Shown piece after piece: positions 35,937 to 46,971 of a DNA stretch of 64,000 nucleotides. The stretch spans positions 62,001-126,000 of the forward strand of contig CAJFQM010000001.1 of NCBI GenBank assembly GCA_904419075.1, read 5' to 3'. The stretch comes from an uncultured Clostridia bacterium. GTDB taxonomy: Bacteria; Bacillota; Clostridia; Christensenellales; Borkfalkiaceae. The translations under genes were made by a program, and so were the position numbers. Every line of letters begins with the position of its first letter. Position 1 is the stretch's first letter. Under the pieces are notes generated by a model. That model was not told the origin of the DNA. It worked only from the letters and a program-made list of their open reading frames with translations, and made no database searches.

Positions 35937-36042
35937 TACTATGACAGACATAATTATTATGTCTGTCATAGTATATGGAAATGTGTGAAAAAATTCTCGA
36001 AAATATACTTTGTCTGTCATAGTAATTATGTGTGGCATAGTA
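35936..36042. repeat. 39-bp perfect palindrome plus two repeated half-sites
   Basis: 35936-35974 is a perfect palindrome (19-base arms around a T at 35955) with the core TATGTCTGTCATAGTA. The same 16-mer, with one change, recurs directly at 36009-36024 and, with two changes, at 36027-36042, 18 bases apart. It has no T-run, so it is unlikely to be a terminator. It looks like a multi-site operator or a small repeat family. It lies between an HD-domain gene and sigK. Confidence 0.85.
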
Positions 36043-36218: not shown

Positions 36219-36920
36219 ATGTTTCTGGATTTTTTATGGGCGATTCTCGGAAAAATCGTGTTTTTTACGGGGGCGATCGGCGGGAAAAATTCTTTTCCCA
36301 AGCCGTTGCCCAAAGAGGAGGAAGAAAAATATCTGGCTTTGGCGAGACGGGGCGACAAAGAGGCGAAAGATGTGCTCATCAGGCATAATATGAGGCTGGT
36401 GGCGCACATCGTAAAAAAATATACCGGAGCGGCGGAAACCGACGATTTGATTTCCGTAGGCAGCATAGGTCTCATCAAGGCAATTAATACTTATGAACCG
36501 GGGCACGGAACGGCTCTTGCGACATATACTGCGCGTTGTATCGAGAATGAGATTCTGATGCTGATTCGTACAAATAAGAAGCATAAAAACAATTTGTCTC
36601 TTTCCGATCCCGTCGGGACGGATAAAGACGGAAATGAGTTGACTTTGATGGATTTACTTTTTGAAAAGGAAGATTGCGTATTTGAGAAAGTAGAGAGATC
36701 GGTGCAGCGGGAAAAACTTTTGAGGCAGGTGAAGCTCATTTTGAGCGAACGGGAGTATACGGTATTATGTCTGAGATATGCTTTGAAGGGCGGAGTACCT
36801 CTGCCGCAAAGGGAAGTGGCAAAGATGCTCAGGATTTCCAGATCGTATATTTCGAGAATCGAAAAGAGGGCGATAGAGAAACTGCGCGTTCGGCTTCATT
36901 CGGACGACTTTTTCGAGTGA
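36219..36920 (+). CDS. sigK: RNA polymerase sporulation sigma factor, pro-sigma-K
   Basis: 233 residues. A hydrophobic N-terminus of about 22 residues (MFLDFLWAILGKIVFFTGAI) is the membrane-bound pro-sequence, removed by SpoIVFB in Bacillus. KNSFPKPLPKEEEEKYLALA follows, matching the sigma-K opening, then region 2 (NMRLVAHIVKKY, DLISVGSIGLIKAINTY, ATYTARCIENEILM) and region 4 (LPQREVAKMLRISRSYISRIEKRA). Sigma-K drives late mother-cell genes for coat and crust. The frame is intact, with no skin-type insertion. It marks the organism as having at least part of the sporulation programme. The ATG has a GGCGGTAGG site. Confidence 0.92.
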   Translation: MFLDFLWAILGKIVFFTGAIGGKNSFPKPLPKEEEEKYLALARRGDKEAKDVLIRHNMRLVAHIVKKYTGAAETDDLISVGSIGLIKAINTYEPGHGTALATYTARCIENEILMLIRTNKKHKNNLSLSDPVGTDKDGNELTLMDLLFEKEDCVFEKVERSVQREKLLRQVKLILSEREYTVLCLRYALKGGVPLPQREVAKMLRISRSYISRIEKRAIEKLRVRLHSDDFFE

Positions 36921-42654: not shown

Positions 42655-45600
42655 TTATTGATTTTGCGGAGCGGAATTTTTGGAGTTCAAAGTAAATAAA
42701 TAATAGAACACCGCAAAAAACACCAGATTGAGGAGATACAAAACGGGCAGAATCACGTAAGTGAGCAACTCCGTCGGCTGTTTAAGATCTGCTTTAAGAT
42801 AGACCGCGATCATCGTTGTCGCAATGACCCCGATCACGAAAAGAATCGATGCGTTGAGCAGATAAGAGGGATGCTTGCTTCTGCGTGCCTGCTGGCGATA
42901 ACCGCAGGCATATAAAATCGTACAGGTCAGAAATGCAACGAAGCCGATGGCGAACCCGATGGCGGGATAAAGCCCGGAAATGTCGAGTTTATCTCTCATG
43001 AAGAAAATTACCAGACTTTCCGCAATGACGATGCAGAACATGATGAGCGCGGCTTTGAATAAAGTGAGTCCCTTGTTAAATACGGGAGAAAAATTGTTAT
43101 CCGCCGCCTTGCTTTTGGCACCCATGCTTCCGGCCGTTTTTATCCGAATACCGTCCGCCTTCGCGCGTTGTCTTAGGTCTCCGAAGTCTATTTTTGAAGC
43201 TGTGTCTTCGGAGGGGAAAGACGGGTTGGGAGACGGTTCCGCCGGTCTGAATTCGGAGGTTCCGTACCCGTTGTTCGGATATCCGGCAGGGGGAGCGGCG
43301 TACGGAACGGAATATCCGTAAGCCGTTTCCGCGGCCGCATAACGACGGGAATTAAATTCTCTGCGCGCGGCGTTCAAGGCGTTTTCTCTGTTTTCGAGAT
43401 CAAGTTCCCGATCTTTGAGTTCGGAGATCTGTTTATCGATTGCCGCCGATTTTTCCTGCAATTCCGCGAGCGCTTCGATATGCTTTTTTTCTTGCTCCAA
43501 ACGCGCTTTTTCGTCTTCCGAACGCTGTTTTTCCATTTCGGATTTTTTTTCGTTCAATTCGGCCTGTTGCTTTTCAAATTCCGATTTTTCGACCTCCAAT
43601 TGTTGTTTCAGAACCTGAAAGGAATTTTTTTCTTCCGTAAACCGAGCCAAATTTTCATTGAACTGTTTTACCTGAGCATTATAAGAACTCAGACGATCCG
43701 CAAAGTCGAACTGTTGAGCGGCGAGTGTATTTTTCTGCGTCATGAATTCCAATTGCTGCTGGTTGTAGATGGCTTGGCGCGATGCCATATCTTTCTGCTG
43801 TTGACGAAGGGCGGCCGATTCGTTTTGAAGTTGCTCTCCCGCGCGCACCAATTCGGCGTGGCGAGCCGCAAGCTCTTCCTGTTGACGCTGTATATCGGCG
43901 GAAGAAGTATCTGTCTGCGTTTTTTGTGTTTCGATGGCCCGAAGCCGCTCTTCCATCTGATATTCTTTTTCCGTCAGCTCGTAATTTCTTCGCTCGATTT
44001 CCGTCTGCTTTTCGGCAAATTGTTTCCGGGCATCCTCGAACGCCGATTTTTCCGCTTCAAAGGATTCTTGCTCCGAAAGCAGAACTTTTTCTTTTTCGTT
44101 CAATTCCGACTGAGCTTGTCCCAATTGAAGACGTTCCGCTTCCAATGCTTCCTTTTCGGAAACAAAGGAATCTTTTTCTTCCTCCCAGCGGCTGCGAAGG
44201 GCTTCGTATTCTTCTCGTTCGAGTTGCAAAGCAGATTCTTTCTCCGCGAGTGCCGCTTCCCGCGTTTCCAATTCGGAAAGGGTGGTGGAGACGTTTTCTT
44301 CCGAAGATTTCATGGAATCGGACAACTCGGCGATTTTTTGTTCGCGTGCGGATAAATCCGCTTCTTTTTCTTGAAGCTGTGTTTTAAGGCTTTCAAGCTC
44401 GGCCGTTTTTTCGGCAATGTCTCGCCTGGAAACTTCCAACGCTTCTTTCTGTTCGTCGAGCTGAGCTTGCTGCGCCCGAAGTTCGACCGATCGGTTATAG
44501 TGCTCCGCGGTTTTGTTTTCGAGATCTGCCTTTAACAGATTCATTGCTTCTTCGTGGGAAGAAAGCGCTTTTCTCAAAGCTGAGATATCTGATTTTTTCT
44601 CTTCGAGCTCCGCTTTGATCTGAGAAAGCTCTTCGCTTTCTTCACGGCGGCTTTCCAATTCGGATTTCCTTGCTTCGAGCTGAACTTTCTGTTCTTCCAG
44701 CTTTTCCTGCTCGGAACGAATGAGGGAAAGGAGGTTATAATTTTCCGAGGTCTTTTCGTCGAGTTCGTTTCTCAAAGAATCGAGAGAAAGAGTTTTTTCT
44801 TCTATCTGTTCCCTTTGAGCACGAATTTCCGCTTCGGCTTCTTCGATTTCCCTTTGTTTTTCTTCCAGCCGCCTTTCCGATTCTTCGAGGGCTGCGGTGC
44901 GGGCGGACAGCTCGTTTTGCTTTTCCTCGGCGGAAGATTGAACGGAAGTGATCGCTTCTTCTCTTTCCGCCAACGCTTTCTGAGATTCTTCGAGTTCGAG
45001 CCGTTTTTCGTCGAGTTCCTTTTGAAGAGTTACGAGCGCGTTTTGTTTTCCCGCCAGTTCTTCCTGCAAAATACGGAGTTCGGATTGTTTTTCCTCCAAT
45101 TCGTCCGCCTGGGAAACGGTAGAGGCTTTGACTTCGTCGAGCTCGCTGATTTTATCGTCCAATTCTGTTTTTTGCGTCTCGACGGTGATTTTCAGATTTT
45201 CGATTTCCGTACGCTGCCTTTCCAATTCGGCCTTCGCTTCCCGTATCTGTCGTTCTTTTTCGTCGAGCTCGATTTCTTTGGCGTCGATTTCCCCCTGTTT
45301 TTCGCTCAGAGTGCGTTGCTTTTCTTCTAACTCTTCTTTCTGCGCGCGAATTTTTTCTTTCAATTCGTTGAAATCGGATTTTTGCGTGCTTAAAGAGGAA
45401 CTTTGCACGGAAAGGAGGGAACGCTCGCGCTGCAATTCGTTTTTCAAATTATTCAGCGCGTTTCTTTCGTCCTCCAAAGCGGATTCCCGAGCGGAAAGCA
45501 TCTTTTTGATATCGATCAGCTCCTTTTGTTTTTCCGTAATGAAAGAAAAATCGTAATGAGCATTGCCGTCGGAAATCAAACTGTCGATAATCGTGCGGGA

Positions 45601-45975
45601 ATATTCCCATTCGGAAAGATTTCTTTCCGTGATCTCCTTGCCCTTATCCGTAAGTCGGAAATATTTACGTCTGCCGCCGTTGGAGAAATCGCCGTAATAG
45701 GATTCGACGTAATGGAGCGATTCGAGACGTTTTAAGGCGCTGTAAAGAGTGGGCTGTTTCAATGTATACAGTCCGCCGCTCTTTTTTTCTATTTCGTTTA
45801 TAATGTCATATCCGTATTTGTCCCCGTCGTACAGACTTCTTAAAATAATCGTATTGATATGTCCGCGGATTAAATCGGAACTGATCGTGATTCCCTGTTC
45901 TTCGGCGCCTCCCGTCAAAGAAAATTCTTCGTCGGGAATCTCGTCTTTAAGCGGGGTTTTTTCCTGCTGAGCCAT
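42655..45975 (-). CDS. PadR-type DNA-binding domain on a long coiled coil with four membrane helices
   Basis: 1106 residues. Residues about 33-115 form a PadR winged helix (RGHINTIILRSLYDGDKYGY, LYTLKQPTLYSALKRLESLH, GGRRKYFRLTDKGKE). From about 145 to 880 runs an almost unbroken Glu/Lys/Gln/Leu heptad coiled coil of about 735 residues. A Tyr/Pro/Gly-rich linker (about 886-930) and a basic segment follow. The end has four membrane helices (about 975-993, 1002-1026, 1038-1060, 1070-1094) and a short polar tail. With four helices both ends stay in the cytoplasm, so the PadR head can reach DNA. PadR proteins normally have about 110-190 residues. No prophage or division genes are near. I infer a membrane-tethered regulator or chromosome-membrane linker. 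The start ATG has an AAGGAGG site. Confidence 0.9.
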   Translation of the reverse strand: MAQQEKTPLKDEIPDEEFSLTGGAEEQGITISSDLIRGHINTIILRSLYDGDKYGYDIINEIEKKSGGLYTLKQPTLYSALKRLESLHYVESYYGDFSNGGRRKYFRLTDKGKEITERNLSEWEYSRTIIDSLISDGNAHYDFSFITEKQKELIDIKKMLSARESALEDERNALNNLKNELQRERSLLSVQSSSLSTQKSDFNELKEKIRAQKEELEEKQRTLSEKQGEIDAKEIELDEKERQIREAKAELERQRTEIENLKITVETQKTELDDKISELDEVKASTVSQADELEEKQSELRILQEELAGKQNALVTLQKELDEKRLELEESQKALAEREEAITSVQSSAEEKQNELSARTAALEESERRLEEKQREIEEAEAEIRAQREQIEEKTLSLDSLRNELDEKTSENYNLLSLIRSEQEKLEEQKVQLEARKSELESRREESEELSQIKAELEEKKSDISALRKALSSHEEAMNLLKADLENKTAEHYNRSVELRAQQAQLDEQKEALEVSRRDIAEKTAELESLKTQLQEKEADLSAREQKIAELSDSMKSSEENVSTTLSELETREAALAEKESALQLEREEYEALRSRWEEEKDSFVSEKEALEAERLQLGQAQSELNEKEKVLLSEQESFEAEKSAFEDARKQFAEKQTEIERRNYELTEKEYQMEERLRAIETQKTQTDTSSADIQRQQEELAARHAELVRAGEQLQNESAALRQQQKDMASRQAIYNQQQLEFMTQKNTLAAQQFDFADRLSSYNAQVKQFNENLARFTEEKNSFQVLKQQLEVEKSEFEKQQAELNEKKSEMEKQRSEDEKARLEQEKKHIEALAELQEKSAAIDKQISELKDRELDLENRENALNAARREFNSRRYAAAETAYGYSVPYAAPPAGYPNNGYGTSEFRPAEPSPNPSFPSEDTASKIDFGDLRQRAKADGIRIKTAGSMGAKSKAADNNFSPVFNKGLTLFKAALIMFCIVIAESLVIFFMRDKLDISGLYPAIGFAIGFVAFLTCTILYACGYRQQARRSKHPSYLLNASILFVIGVIATTMIAVYLKADLKQPTELLTYVILPVLYLLNLVFFAVFYYLFTLNSKNSAPQNQ

Positions 45976-46050
45976 TGTTTCCTCCTTTGTAAGTGTGCGT
46001 GACAGAGTATTGGTTTATTTGAAATTATATAATAATATCTTACATAGAGT

Positions 46051-46080
46051 ATTATACAACATATATATGTATTAAGTCAA
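46051..46080 (-). promoter_or_regulatory. Promoter with palindromic operator for the PadR-coil gene
   Basis: On the minus strand, TTGACT at 46080-46075, an 18-base spacer, and TATAAT at 46056-46051. The spacer contains the perfect palindrome ACATATATATGT (46059-46070), and the -10 is overlapped by GTATTATAC (46049-46057). Both could be sites for autorepression by the PadR domain. Confidence 0.6.
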
Positions 46081-46224: not shown

Positions 46225-46971
46225 ATGGAATTATATGAACATATTAAGACATTCGATGTAAAATATTGCGATACGGATTTCAAGGACGAACTGAAACCTT
46301 CGGCGGTTTTGGCGTATCTTGAAGAGGTTGCCTGTTCCAGTGCGGACGAGCTGGGGTTCGGTTACGAATTTATTAAGCCGAGAGGATATGCGTTCATGCT
46401 GACGAATATCCGTTGCGAATTTTTGAAACCCGTTCCTTTGGGCGAGCATATAGTCGTCAAGACTTGGCCGACGCCTCCTTCTTATGTGGTGTTCGGCAGA
46501 GAGTACCGGATCTTGTCTCCCGAAGGGGACGTTTACATGAACGCCACCTCTCGCTGGTGCATGGCGGATATCAAAAGCGGAAAACTCCTTCAATCGAAAT
46601 TGCTGGAAAATCAGGATTATTCGACTTATAATCCTACGCGCGCGCTGGATGTCAATCGGTGGAAGTTTCCTGTTTTCAAACCGGAAGAAGGGGAGCTTCG
46701 TTTCGAGATGACCGTCGCCAATTCGGAATATGATCATAATATGCATGTCAATAATACTCGGTACGCCGATTATTGTTTCAACTGTTTTTCGGTGTCGGAA
46801 CTTGCGTCTCGAAAACTCAAAGGATTTGCCCTCAGCTATTCGAGACAGTGCCGCGAGGGAGACAAACTTCGCTTTTATCGCAAGCCTGCGGAAGAAGGCG
46901 CTTTTCTCGTTCAGGGCTTTAACGAAAAGAACGAAGTGGTCGTTCAGTCCGAAATTCTTTTTTTCAATTAG
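46225..46971 (+). CDS. Acyl-ACP thioesterase
   Basis: 248 residues with two hot-dog folds. First half: FDVKYCDTDFKDELKPSAVLAYL, RGYAFMLTNIRCEFLKP, VVKTWPTP and NATSRWCMADIKSGK. Second half: the DHNMHVNNTRYADYCFN segment that carries the catalytic Asn/His of FatA-type thioesterases, and LSYSRQCREGD. It releases free fatty acids from ACP. The ATG at 46225 is chosen because the motif begins soon after. It lies exactly at the expected transcription start, with no ribosome site, so the transcript appears leaderless. The gene is divergent from the PadR-coil gene, sharing a 249-base upstream region. Confidence 0.85.
   Translation: MELYEHIKTFDVKYCDTDFKDELKPSAVLAYLEEVACSSADELGFGYEFIKPRGYAFMLTNIRCEFLKPVPLGEHIVVKTWPTPPSYVVFGREYRILSPEGDVYMNATSRWCMADIKSGKLLQSKLLENQDYSTYNPTRALDVNRWKFPVFKPEEGELRFEMTVANSEYDHNMHVNNTRYADYCFNCFSVSELASRKLKGFALSYSRQCREGDKLRFYRKPAEEGAFLVQGFNEKNEVVVQSEILFFN

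Follow-up and report, generated by a model that had tools for sequence, protein, structure and literature searches.

A PadR–coiled coil–four-helix protein of an uncultured Clostridia bacterium: a candidate tether of the replication terminus region to the membrane

A 64,000-nucleotide stretch of DNA from an uncultured Clostridia bacterium of the family Borkfalkiaceae (contig CAJFQM010000001.1, positions 62,001 to 126,000; hereafter "the window") exhibits an uninterrupted open reading frame (ORF; 42655..45975, minus strand, ATG start) encoding a 1106-amino acid (aa) protein, in which a PadR winged-helix domain, a giant coiled coil, a linker and four transmembrane (TM) helices follow one another in a single chain. 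We propose, with a probability of roughly 60%, that this fusion protein and its relatives act as a one-protein tether joining the replication terminus region to the membrane, and possibly also as a fork barrier. A PadR dimer would bind copies of a 13-bp palindrome (TATGTCWGACATA) scattered across about 80-200 kb at the terminus; the spacer, a 110-nm rod here and a loose proline-containing chain in many relatives, would keep the head off the membrane; the four-helix domain would be the membrane anchor; and a copy of the palindrome in the promoters of relatives would let the protein tune its own level. The outcome that we infer would be a terminus region held at the envelope, for instance positioned at the division site. 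The proposal draws on observations made by computation, namely the protein plan, its conservation, the promoter palindrome, the clustering of sites at the terminus, a switch of site polarity in relatives and the co-occurrence of the sites with the fusion.

Architecture and distribution of the fusion protein

The composition of the protein had been proposed in an earlier note on this DNA, which gave no strand; ORF, Pfam, periodicity and hydropathy analyses agree with it. The PadR domain (aa 44-115; 45631..45846, minus strand, as are all parts described here) matches PF03551 with an E-value of 4.2e-16 and a score of 59.1 bits, against a cut-off of 27. An AlphaFold2 (AF2) monomer model of the PadR part (mean predicted local distance difference test score, pLDDT, of 82.6) exhibits a final helix, 81-106, at the position of the C-terminal dimerisation helix. 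Its best match in the PDB has an E-value of 5.5e-11, and the 50 best matches listed are PadR-type regulators, mostly LmrR. The head is predicted to bind DNA.

The coil (aa 161-890; 43306..45495) is a continuous, proline-free stretch of 730 residues with a hydrophobic period of 3.50 and a power of 8.66, 100 shuffles reaching 1.36 at most; the power for aa 136-905 is 8.75, against a maximum of 1.07 in 300 shuffles. Since a single signal of period 3.50 stands far above the shuffles, the heptad phase is kept along the entire coil. At 0.15 nm per residue its length comes to about 110 nm, as the earlier note had estimated. Within the genus of the window, a Q-rich island of the coil (aa 726-775; 43651..43800) exhibits 63-79% identity, compared with 18-38% in the preceding 125 residues and 24-28% in the following 75. 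Given such conserved islands, the rod may also carry a docking site.

The coil is followed by a Pro/Tyr-rich linker (about aa 891-974; 43054..43305) with a conserved basic stretch at its end and a short conserved pre-membrane helix (about aa 931-940; 43156..43185; DLRxRAQxDGIRL motif in the alignment, AF2 helix 10-19), and then by the four TM helices (aa 975-1089; 42709..43053), which hydropathy places at 975-993, 1006-1024, 1042-1060 and 1071-1089. The AF2 model of the C-terminal domain likewise consists of a short helix and a block of four membrane helices (pLDDT 80.5 on average, with values of about 81-94 for the helices). Lysine plus arginine counts (N-side 6, loop 1 2, loop 2 4, loop 3 2, C-tail 1) are compatible with both protein ends being in the cytoplasm, as the earlier note had predicted, and the protein would be located in the membrane in vivo. 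A fold search of the four-helix domain against the PDB gave nothing below E 0.1, and no Pfam family scored above its cut-off in the 11 members tabulated. An assignment to DUF1129, Yip1 or HAAS was considered and rejected: DUF1129 reached E<0.1 in nine of 30 members (best 4.7e-5), with scores under the cut-off in both members for which a score is given, and other membrane families were equally weak. A Pfam scan of the whole protein gave no HAAS/DUF1700 match at E 0.1 and no MatP family match at E up to 0.1.

Some match to the protein was found in 56 of the 61 genomes searched with it. The fusion, or a part of it cut by a contig end, is present in 31 of 37 genomes of the genus; the six without it (G005, G006, G009, G010, G020 and G032) have an assembly completeness of 72-86%. 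Among 40 stretches read from whole genomes, the full fusion occurs in one frame in all 22 from the genus and in seven of the 18 from other families, the other 11 of which exhibit a short PadR frame only (nine; 112-151 aa) or none (two). When named genomes were scanned, 482 relatives of the PadR part were obtained; the best 80 of these are all fusions, 78 as called by script and two on inspection of the single frame (570 and 874 aa). One locus is common to the whole-genome and named sets (L055 = L111). The resulting set of 108 proteins (30 from whole genomes, query included, and 78 named) exhibits the four C-terminal helices above threshold in 107 cases; in the remaining one, a single helix falls slightly under. 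A chance or mis-assembled fusion and a read-through were ruled out, as the same single-frame plan recurs across the genus, other families and the named matches. Separate polypeptides for head and coil, which the earlier note had named as a result that would refute its reading, were not seen at the sequence level, the fusion being a single frame in genus loci and named relatives alike.

Among the named relatives are Candidatus Borkfalkia, which the NCBI taxonomy places in Christensenellales, Candidatus Ornithoclostridium and Christensenella sp. A profile of the linker and four TM helices matches 141 of 297 genomes in the order, belonging to 51 of 125 genera. There is usually one match per genome, usually in a frame of 370 to 1000 residues, and a few are short and weak; these are matches to the membrane part, the PadR part not being confirmed for each. 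In a class-wide sample of 391 genomes the profile matches 16, nine in the order and seven outside it, the latter weakly (E 1.7e-4 to 8e-4).

Palindromic sites at the replication terminus

In seven genomes of the window's own family, whole-genome counts of TATGTCWGACATA with at most one mismatch gave 16 sites in G000, 10 in G027, 6 in G035, 7 in G229, 16 in G154, 15 in G168 and 17 in G100; a reversed-pattern control in the same genomes gave 3, 1, 3, 3, 0, 1 and 0, respectively. The sites are clustered. All six of G035 lie within 130 kb, all seven of G229 within 195 kb, and 11 of the 16 of G000 inside 105 kb of a 2332-kb genome. The window itself contains four sites in two pairs of 18-bp spacing (35940..36039), those at 35940 and 35958 with one mismatch and those at 36009 and 36027 with two. 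A further array of three sites was observed in G000 on another, unplaced contig (C5:36431-36541).

The position of the clusters relative to the terminus was read in seven genomes (G000, G035, G229, G027, G154, G061 and G100), from draft assemblies with mechanical ORF calls and with contig order known only within the fetched stretches. In all seven the GC skew turns from plus to minus within the site cluster, and the maximum of the cumulative skew lies inside the range of the sites. As a plus-to-minus switch is the direction expected of a terminus, we read the cluster as lying at the terminus. The coding strand flips together with the skew in G000, G035, G229 and G027; strands are mixed in G154. 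The dnaA gene is on a different contig in all six of the seven genomes in which it was searched. A tyrosine recombinase gene, which we label "Xer-type", is located 0.3-4.1 kb from the skew maximum in all seven. Its product shares 49-53% identity with a reference of a different family, in which PF00589 was identified; L111 3814-4878 belongs to the same set of genes. The distance from the maximum is 0.1 kb for a perfect site in G229 and 0.2 kb for a pair of sites in G100. G068, from a different family, exhibits a change of skew sign between 165 and 200 kb (5-kb samples), the fusion at 159 kb, and eight matches to a 17-bp form of the motif spread over 7-295 kb.

In a count of each of the 4096 palindromes that share this form, that of TATGTC ranked first in the pooled terminus stretches (65 sites), first in three individual stretches and in the top ten in all seven. 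Adjacent control stretches of G000, G035 and G229 (123, 112 and 174 kb) contained no site.

In four relatives (G229, G154, G061 and G100) an AGTAY flank renders the sites polar. Allowing two mismatches in the core and three in core plus flank, and leaving out ties (3 in G100, 7 in the genus), we counted 20 left-flank sites where the skew is plus and 5 where it is minus, against 0 and 28 right-flank sites (pooled Fisher test, 2.6e-10; singly, 0.075 for G229, 0.001 for G154, 0.048 for G061 and 0.010 for G100). A strict count requiring GTAC on one side gave 15 and 2 against 0 and 22 (5.4e-9); since GTAC is self-complementary, this polarity cannot arise from GC skew. No polarity was found in the window's genus (G000, G035 and G027; 9 and 8 sites with a left flank, 10 and 10 with a right flank, p 1.0), where sites are often paired 18 bp apart, as in the window.

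The arrays go with the fusion. Of 91 genomes that match the four-helix profile of the fusion, 22 reached at least four matches to the 17-bp form, and of 109 that do not, none did; at least one match was found in 29 of the former and 12 of the latter, a palindrome possibly counting on both strands. The array copies and the promoter copy described below exhibit the same motif. The PadR head is a natural candidate for the protein that would bind the terminus sites.

The promoter of the fusion gene

A footprint over 23 loci of the genus reveals a common upstream layout, a sigma70-type promoter followed by two palindromes. In the window these are the conserved promoter TTGACT ... TATAAT (46051..46080, minus strand), the operator O1, an imperfect palindrome TACTCTATGTAAGATA (TACTTTATGTAAAGTA in relatives; 46036..46051), and the operator O2 (45996..46011), at the position of which most relatives have a TGTCWGACA-type box. 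An AGGAGG (45981-45986) precedes the ORF.

Outside the genus, the promoters were grouped by neighbour genes and not by a tree, and 17 of the 87 non-genus loci were omitted from the comparison (no anchor pattern, short upstream DNA, or ORF not picked). The TATGTCWGACATA palindrome is present, often with RTAC after it, in promoters of the thioesterase-type loci and of a sister group. With at most two mismatches the core occurs in 21 of 23 thioesterase-type loci, in nine of 11 loci of the sister group (the third group) and in 19 of 23 promoters of the genus; shuffles give an expectation of 0.15-0.3 matches. The palindrome stays with the fusion gene while the neighbours change, which points to self-regulation: it probably controls the fusion gene in close relatives, and this promoter copy suggests that the protein sets its own level there.

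A first operator pattern, a 23-mer of O2 with up to three mismatches, was in the wrong register and was superseded by the 13-bp core. It matched 23 of 57 genomes, and in 13 of these a match coincides with the promoter of the fusion itself. It also matches away from known fusion genes (L201-L214), which may be further targets. Four loci (L139, L140, L147 and L173) exhibit a different long dyad, approximately TTAACTATTCGYAAAA...TTTTGCGAATAGTTTAA, upstream of the fusion; the operator specificity seems to have changed in this clade.

Head, spacer and membrane part in evolution

Conservation is concentrated at the two ends of the protein. Within the genus, the mean identity to the query per 25-residue block is 75-95% in the PadR part (aa 26-150) and 46-61% in the membrane part. 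The spacer varies freely in length and composition, its median being 617 residues with 1% proline in the genus, 402 residues with 4% in the sister group, 339 residues with 8% in the thioesterase-type loci outside the genus (a group that contains both named Candidatus Borkfalkia records) and 173 residues with 7% in the group that neighbours the Xer-type gene. Heptad periodicity, scored in the longest stretch free of proline, exceeded every shuffle in 29 of the 108 proteins, namely in all 23 of the genus, in six of 11 of one sister group and in none of the other 74. The coil as an essential conserved part was ruled out on this count. The plan that the earlier note described recurs in relatives, but the giant coil belongs to the genus and to part of one sister group.

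Among 11 proteins inspected by eye, the coil-less spacers look loose and polar. A spacer that ranges from a coil to a proline-rich chain fits a tether better than a signalling rod. The earlier note had offered three roles for the protein. Tethering gains from the clustering of the palindromes at the terminus; membrane sensing through the coil as a signal rod is disfavoured, as the spacer of many relatives contains proline and appears loose. A conserved head and anchor with a freely varying spacer also provide a natural series on the length of a DNA-membrane tether.

Alternative explanations

Several observations weigh against the tether. Two genomes of other families contained 2 and 1 sites, the control giving 0 and 2. 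Placement is partial: five of the 16 sites of G000 are on other, unplaced contigs, the 15 sites of G168 are spread over eight unmapped contigs, and some sites of G154 and G100 are on contigs that lack a skew switch or were not read. The terminus stretches were picked with the site positions known, so that the ranking of the palindrome is not independent. Fewer than four motif matches were found in 69 of the 91 fusion-bearing genomes, and at least one match in 12 of the 109 genomes without a detected fusion, G054 having three. At the promoter, the window gene is not among the 19 matching genes of the genus, its own O2 being degenerate (more than two mismatches to the core), and the core was found in none of 23 promoters beside the Xer-type gene and in two of 13 other loci. 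The Xer-neighbour clade exhibits a dyad of its own with half-site AACTATTCGYAAAA, which in four genomes was no more frequent than its reversed control (15+26 v 31+35, 12+14 v 12+21, 25+14 v 27+19 and 19+27 v 31+24); terminus arrays are therefore not established for this clade.

The polar sites invite comparison with a replication fork trap of the RTP/Tus kind, in which membrane-bound PadR dimers on polar sites would halt forks that have passed the terminus. PadR dimers share topology and dimer organisation with RTP (PMC3506622, in excerpt); the 50 PDB matches listed for our model do not include RTP, so that this likeness rests on that paper. In G229, G154, G061 and G100 the sites change polarity where the skew peaks, and the RTP and Tus genes likewise have a ter site in the promoter (PMC10331603, in excerpt). 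Taken together, the polar sites of relatives, the promoter copy and the PadR–RTP likeness make a fork trap a serious rival or an added function. We nevertheless consider it unlikely, because the window's genus exhibits no polarity and often has its sites in 18-bp pairs, because a barrier requires neither a membrane anchor nor a 110-nm rod, and because no RTP family protein was found in the window's genome. The family PF02334 scored above its cut-off in none of 41 genomes, the match in G039, which is not the window's genome, lying below it (E 1.5e-4).

The palindromes that overlie the promoter could instead belong to a membrane-sensing one-component transcription regulator, repressing itself and perhaps also the thioesterase gene that adjoins the fusion in 22 of 23 rows of the genus, with the terminus sites as its local regulon. 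A coupling of PadR to membrane proteins is known from PadR-HAAS dyads (PMC11237479, in excerpt). The genic position of the sites cuts both ways. Thirty-one of 67 sites are intergenic, against 7% of the sequence, an enrichment that is a further point against the tether and by which some sites may regulate transcription; the other 36 fall within ORFs, 31 of these being 50 bp or more away from the start, and such positions are unusual for operators. Moreover, polarity tracks the replichore in relatives, the neighbours of the fusion vary between groups, and a loose proline-containing spacer is unlikely to relay a conformational signal. This explanation is in our judgement decidedly improbable.

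Finally, the terminus sites might be bound by another protein, such as a small PadR or an Xer/FtsK accessory factor, the fusion just sharing the operator. G000 has, not far from its terminus, another PadR that stands alone and measures 118 aa (C1:207861-208076, at 207.9 kb; L001); it could bind the same sites, which also counts against the tether. In G029 a small PadR match (129-aa frame) is closely preceded by a three-mismatch match to the 23-mer pattern. The arrays, however, go with the fusion, none of the 109 profile-less genomes reaching four matches, and the fusion query, which is not an exhaustive PadR search, gave no second PadR in G027 and G035. We give this explanation very little credence.

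Relation to known systems

The closest functional parallel to the proposed tether is MatP of Escherichia coli, which, according to excerpts of PMC3330122, binds a 13-bp site, matS, of which a region of 800 kb contains 23 copies, and connects the terminus with the divisome via ZapB. Here too a 13-bp site is repeated across the terminus region. The two systems differ in the head, which is a PadR domain here with no match to the MatP family, in the anchor and spacer, which are part of the same chain here, and in the sites, of which there are 6-17 per counted genome, polar in relatives.

RTP is small and soluble. RTP/Ter of Bacillus subtilis resembles the present system in its winged-helix dimer, with the same topology as PadR (PMC3506622, in excerpt), in the polar sites that surround the terminus in four relatives, and in the site in the gene's own promoter (PMC10331603, in excerpt, for rtp and tus). 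It differs in that the sites of the window's genus are not polar. PadR-s2 regulators (LmrR and others) share domain, fold and promoter palindrome with the fusion; the solved sequences that were matched, 45 in all, have lengths of 98-188 residues, whereas the domain here makes up less than one-tenth of a membrane protein. In the HAAS-PadR dyads of a phage-shock survey (PMC11237479, in excerpt) PadR is likewise coupled to a membrane protein, but by two genes and a HAAS domain; here there is a single chain.

Among the papers listed by searches of one open literature library, no title or abstract opening dealt with a PadR-coil-membrane protein or a membrane-anchored terminus-binding protein. Perhaps the majority of species are without a fork trap, according to excerpts of a review (PMC10331603). 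In our view the family bears on the organisation and holding of the chromosome end in bacteria that have no MatP, Tus or RTP, and it supplies a protein, a site and a testable prediction in an order recorded from many gut samples. A bolder, tentative suggestion, which we ourselves hold to be doubtful, is a new class of chromosome machine, in which one polypeptide would read polar terminus sites, could arrest or mark forks, and would tie the terminus to the membrane. If so, evolution would have stretched the spacer of a tether from about 160 loose residues to a 110-nm rod, and Christensenellales would possess a terminus system that shares no ancestry with MatP, Tus or RTP.

Neighbouring genes and further observations

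The divergent neighbour of the fusion in the window encodes an acyl-ACP thioesterase (46228..46971, plus strand; PF01643, E 9.9e-13), and it is a thioesterase gene cluster that adjoins the fusion in the genus. The thioesterase gene is also divergent from the fusion in many related loci and may share the operator. Outside the genus, the same Xer-type gene that lies at the terminus is found at most six ORFs from the fusion in 37 of 85 loci; with this gene near the fusion, the link to the terminus may extend beyond the motif.

The four-site array of the window is located about 180 bp upstream of a sigma-factor gene (36219-36920), which we take to resemble a sporulation sigma factor. A single further site with one mismatch (36766..36778) lies within this ORF.

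A 314-aa frame in G016 (C23:73097-73543 and C29:19572-20018) exhibits a weak match to the four-helix domain (23% identity, E 9.1e-5) and is possibly a membrane-domain relative without PadR. In L148, of the sister group, acidic tandem repeats, for example DEPSYRLEDEES, are located N-terminal to the PadR domain of the fusion.

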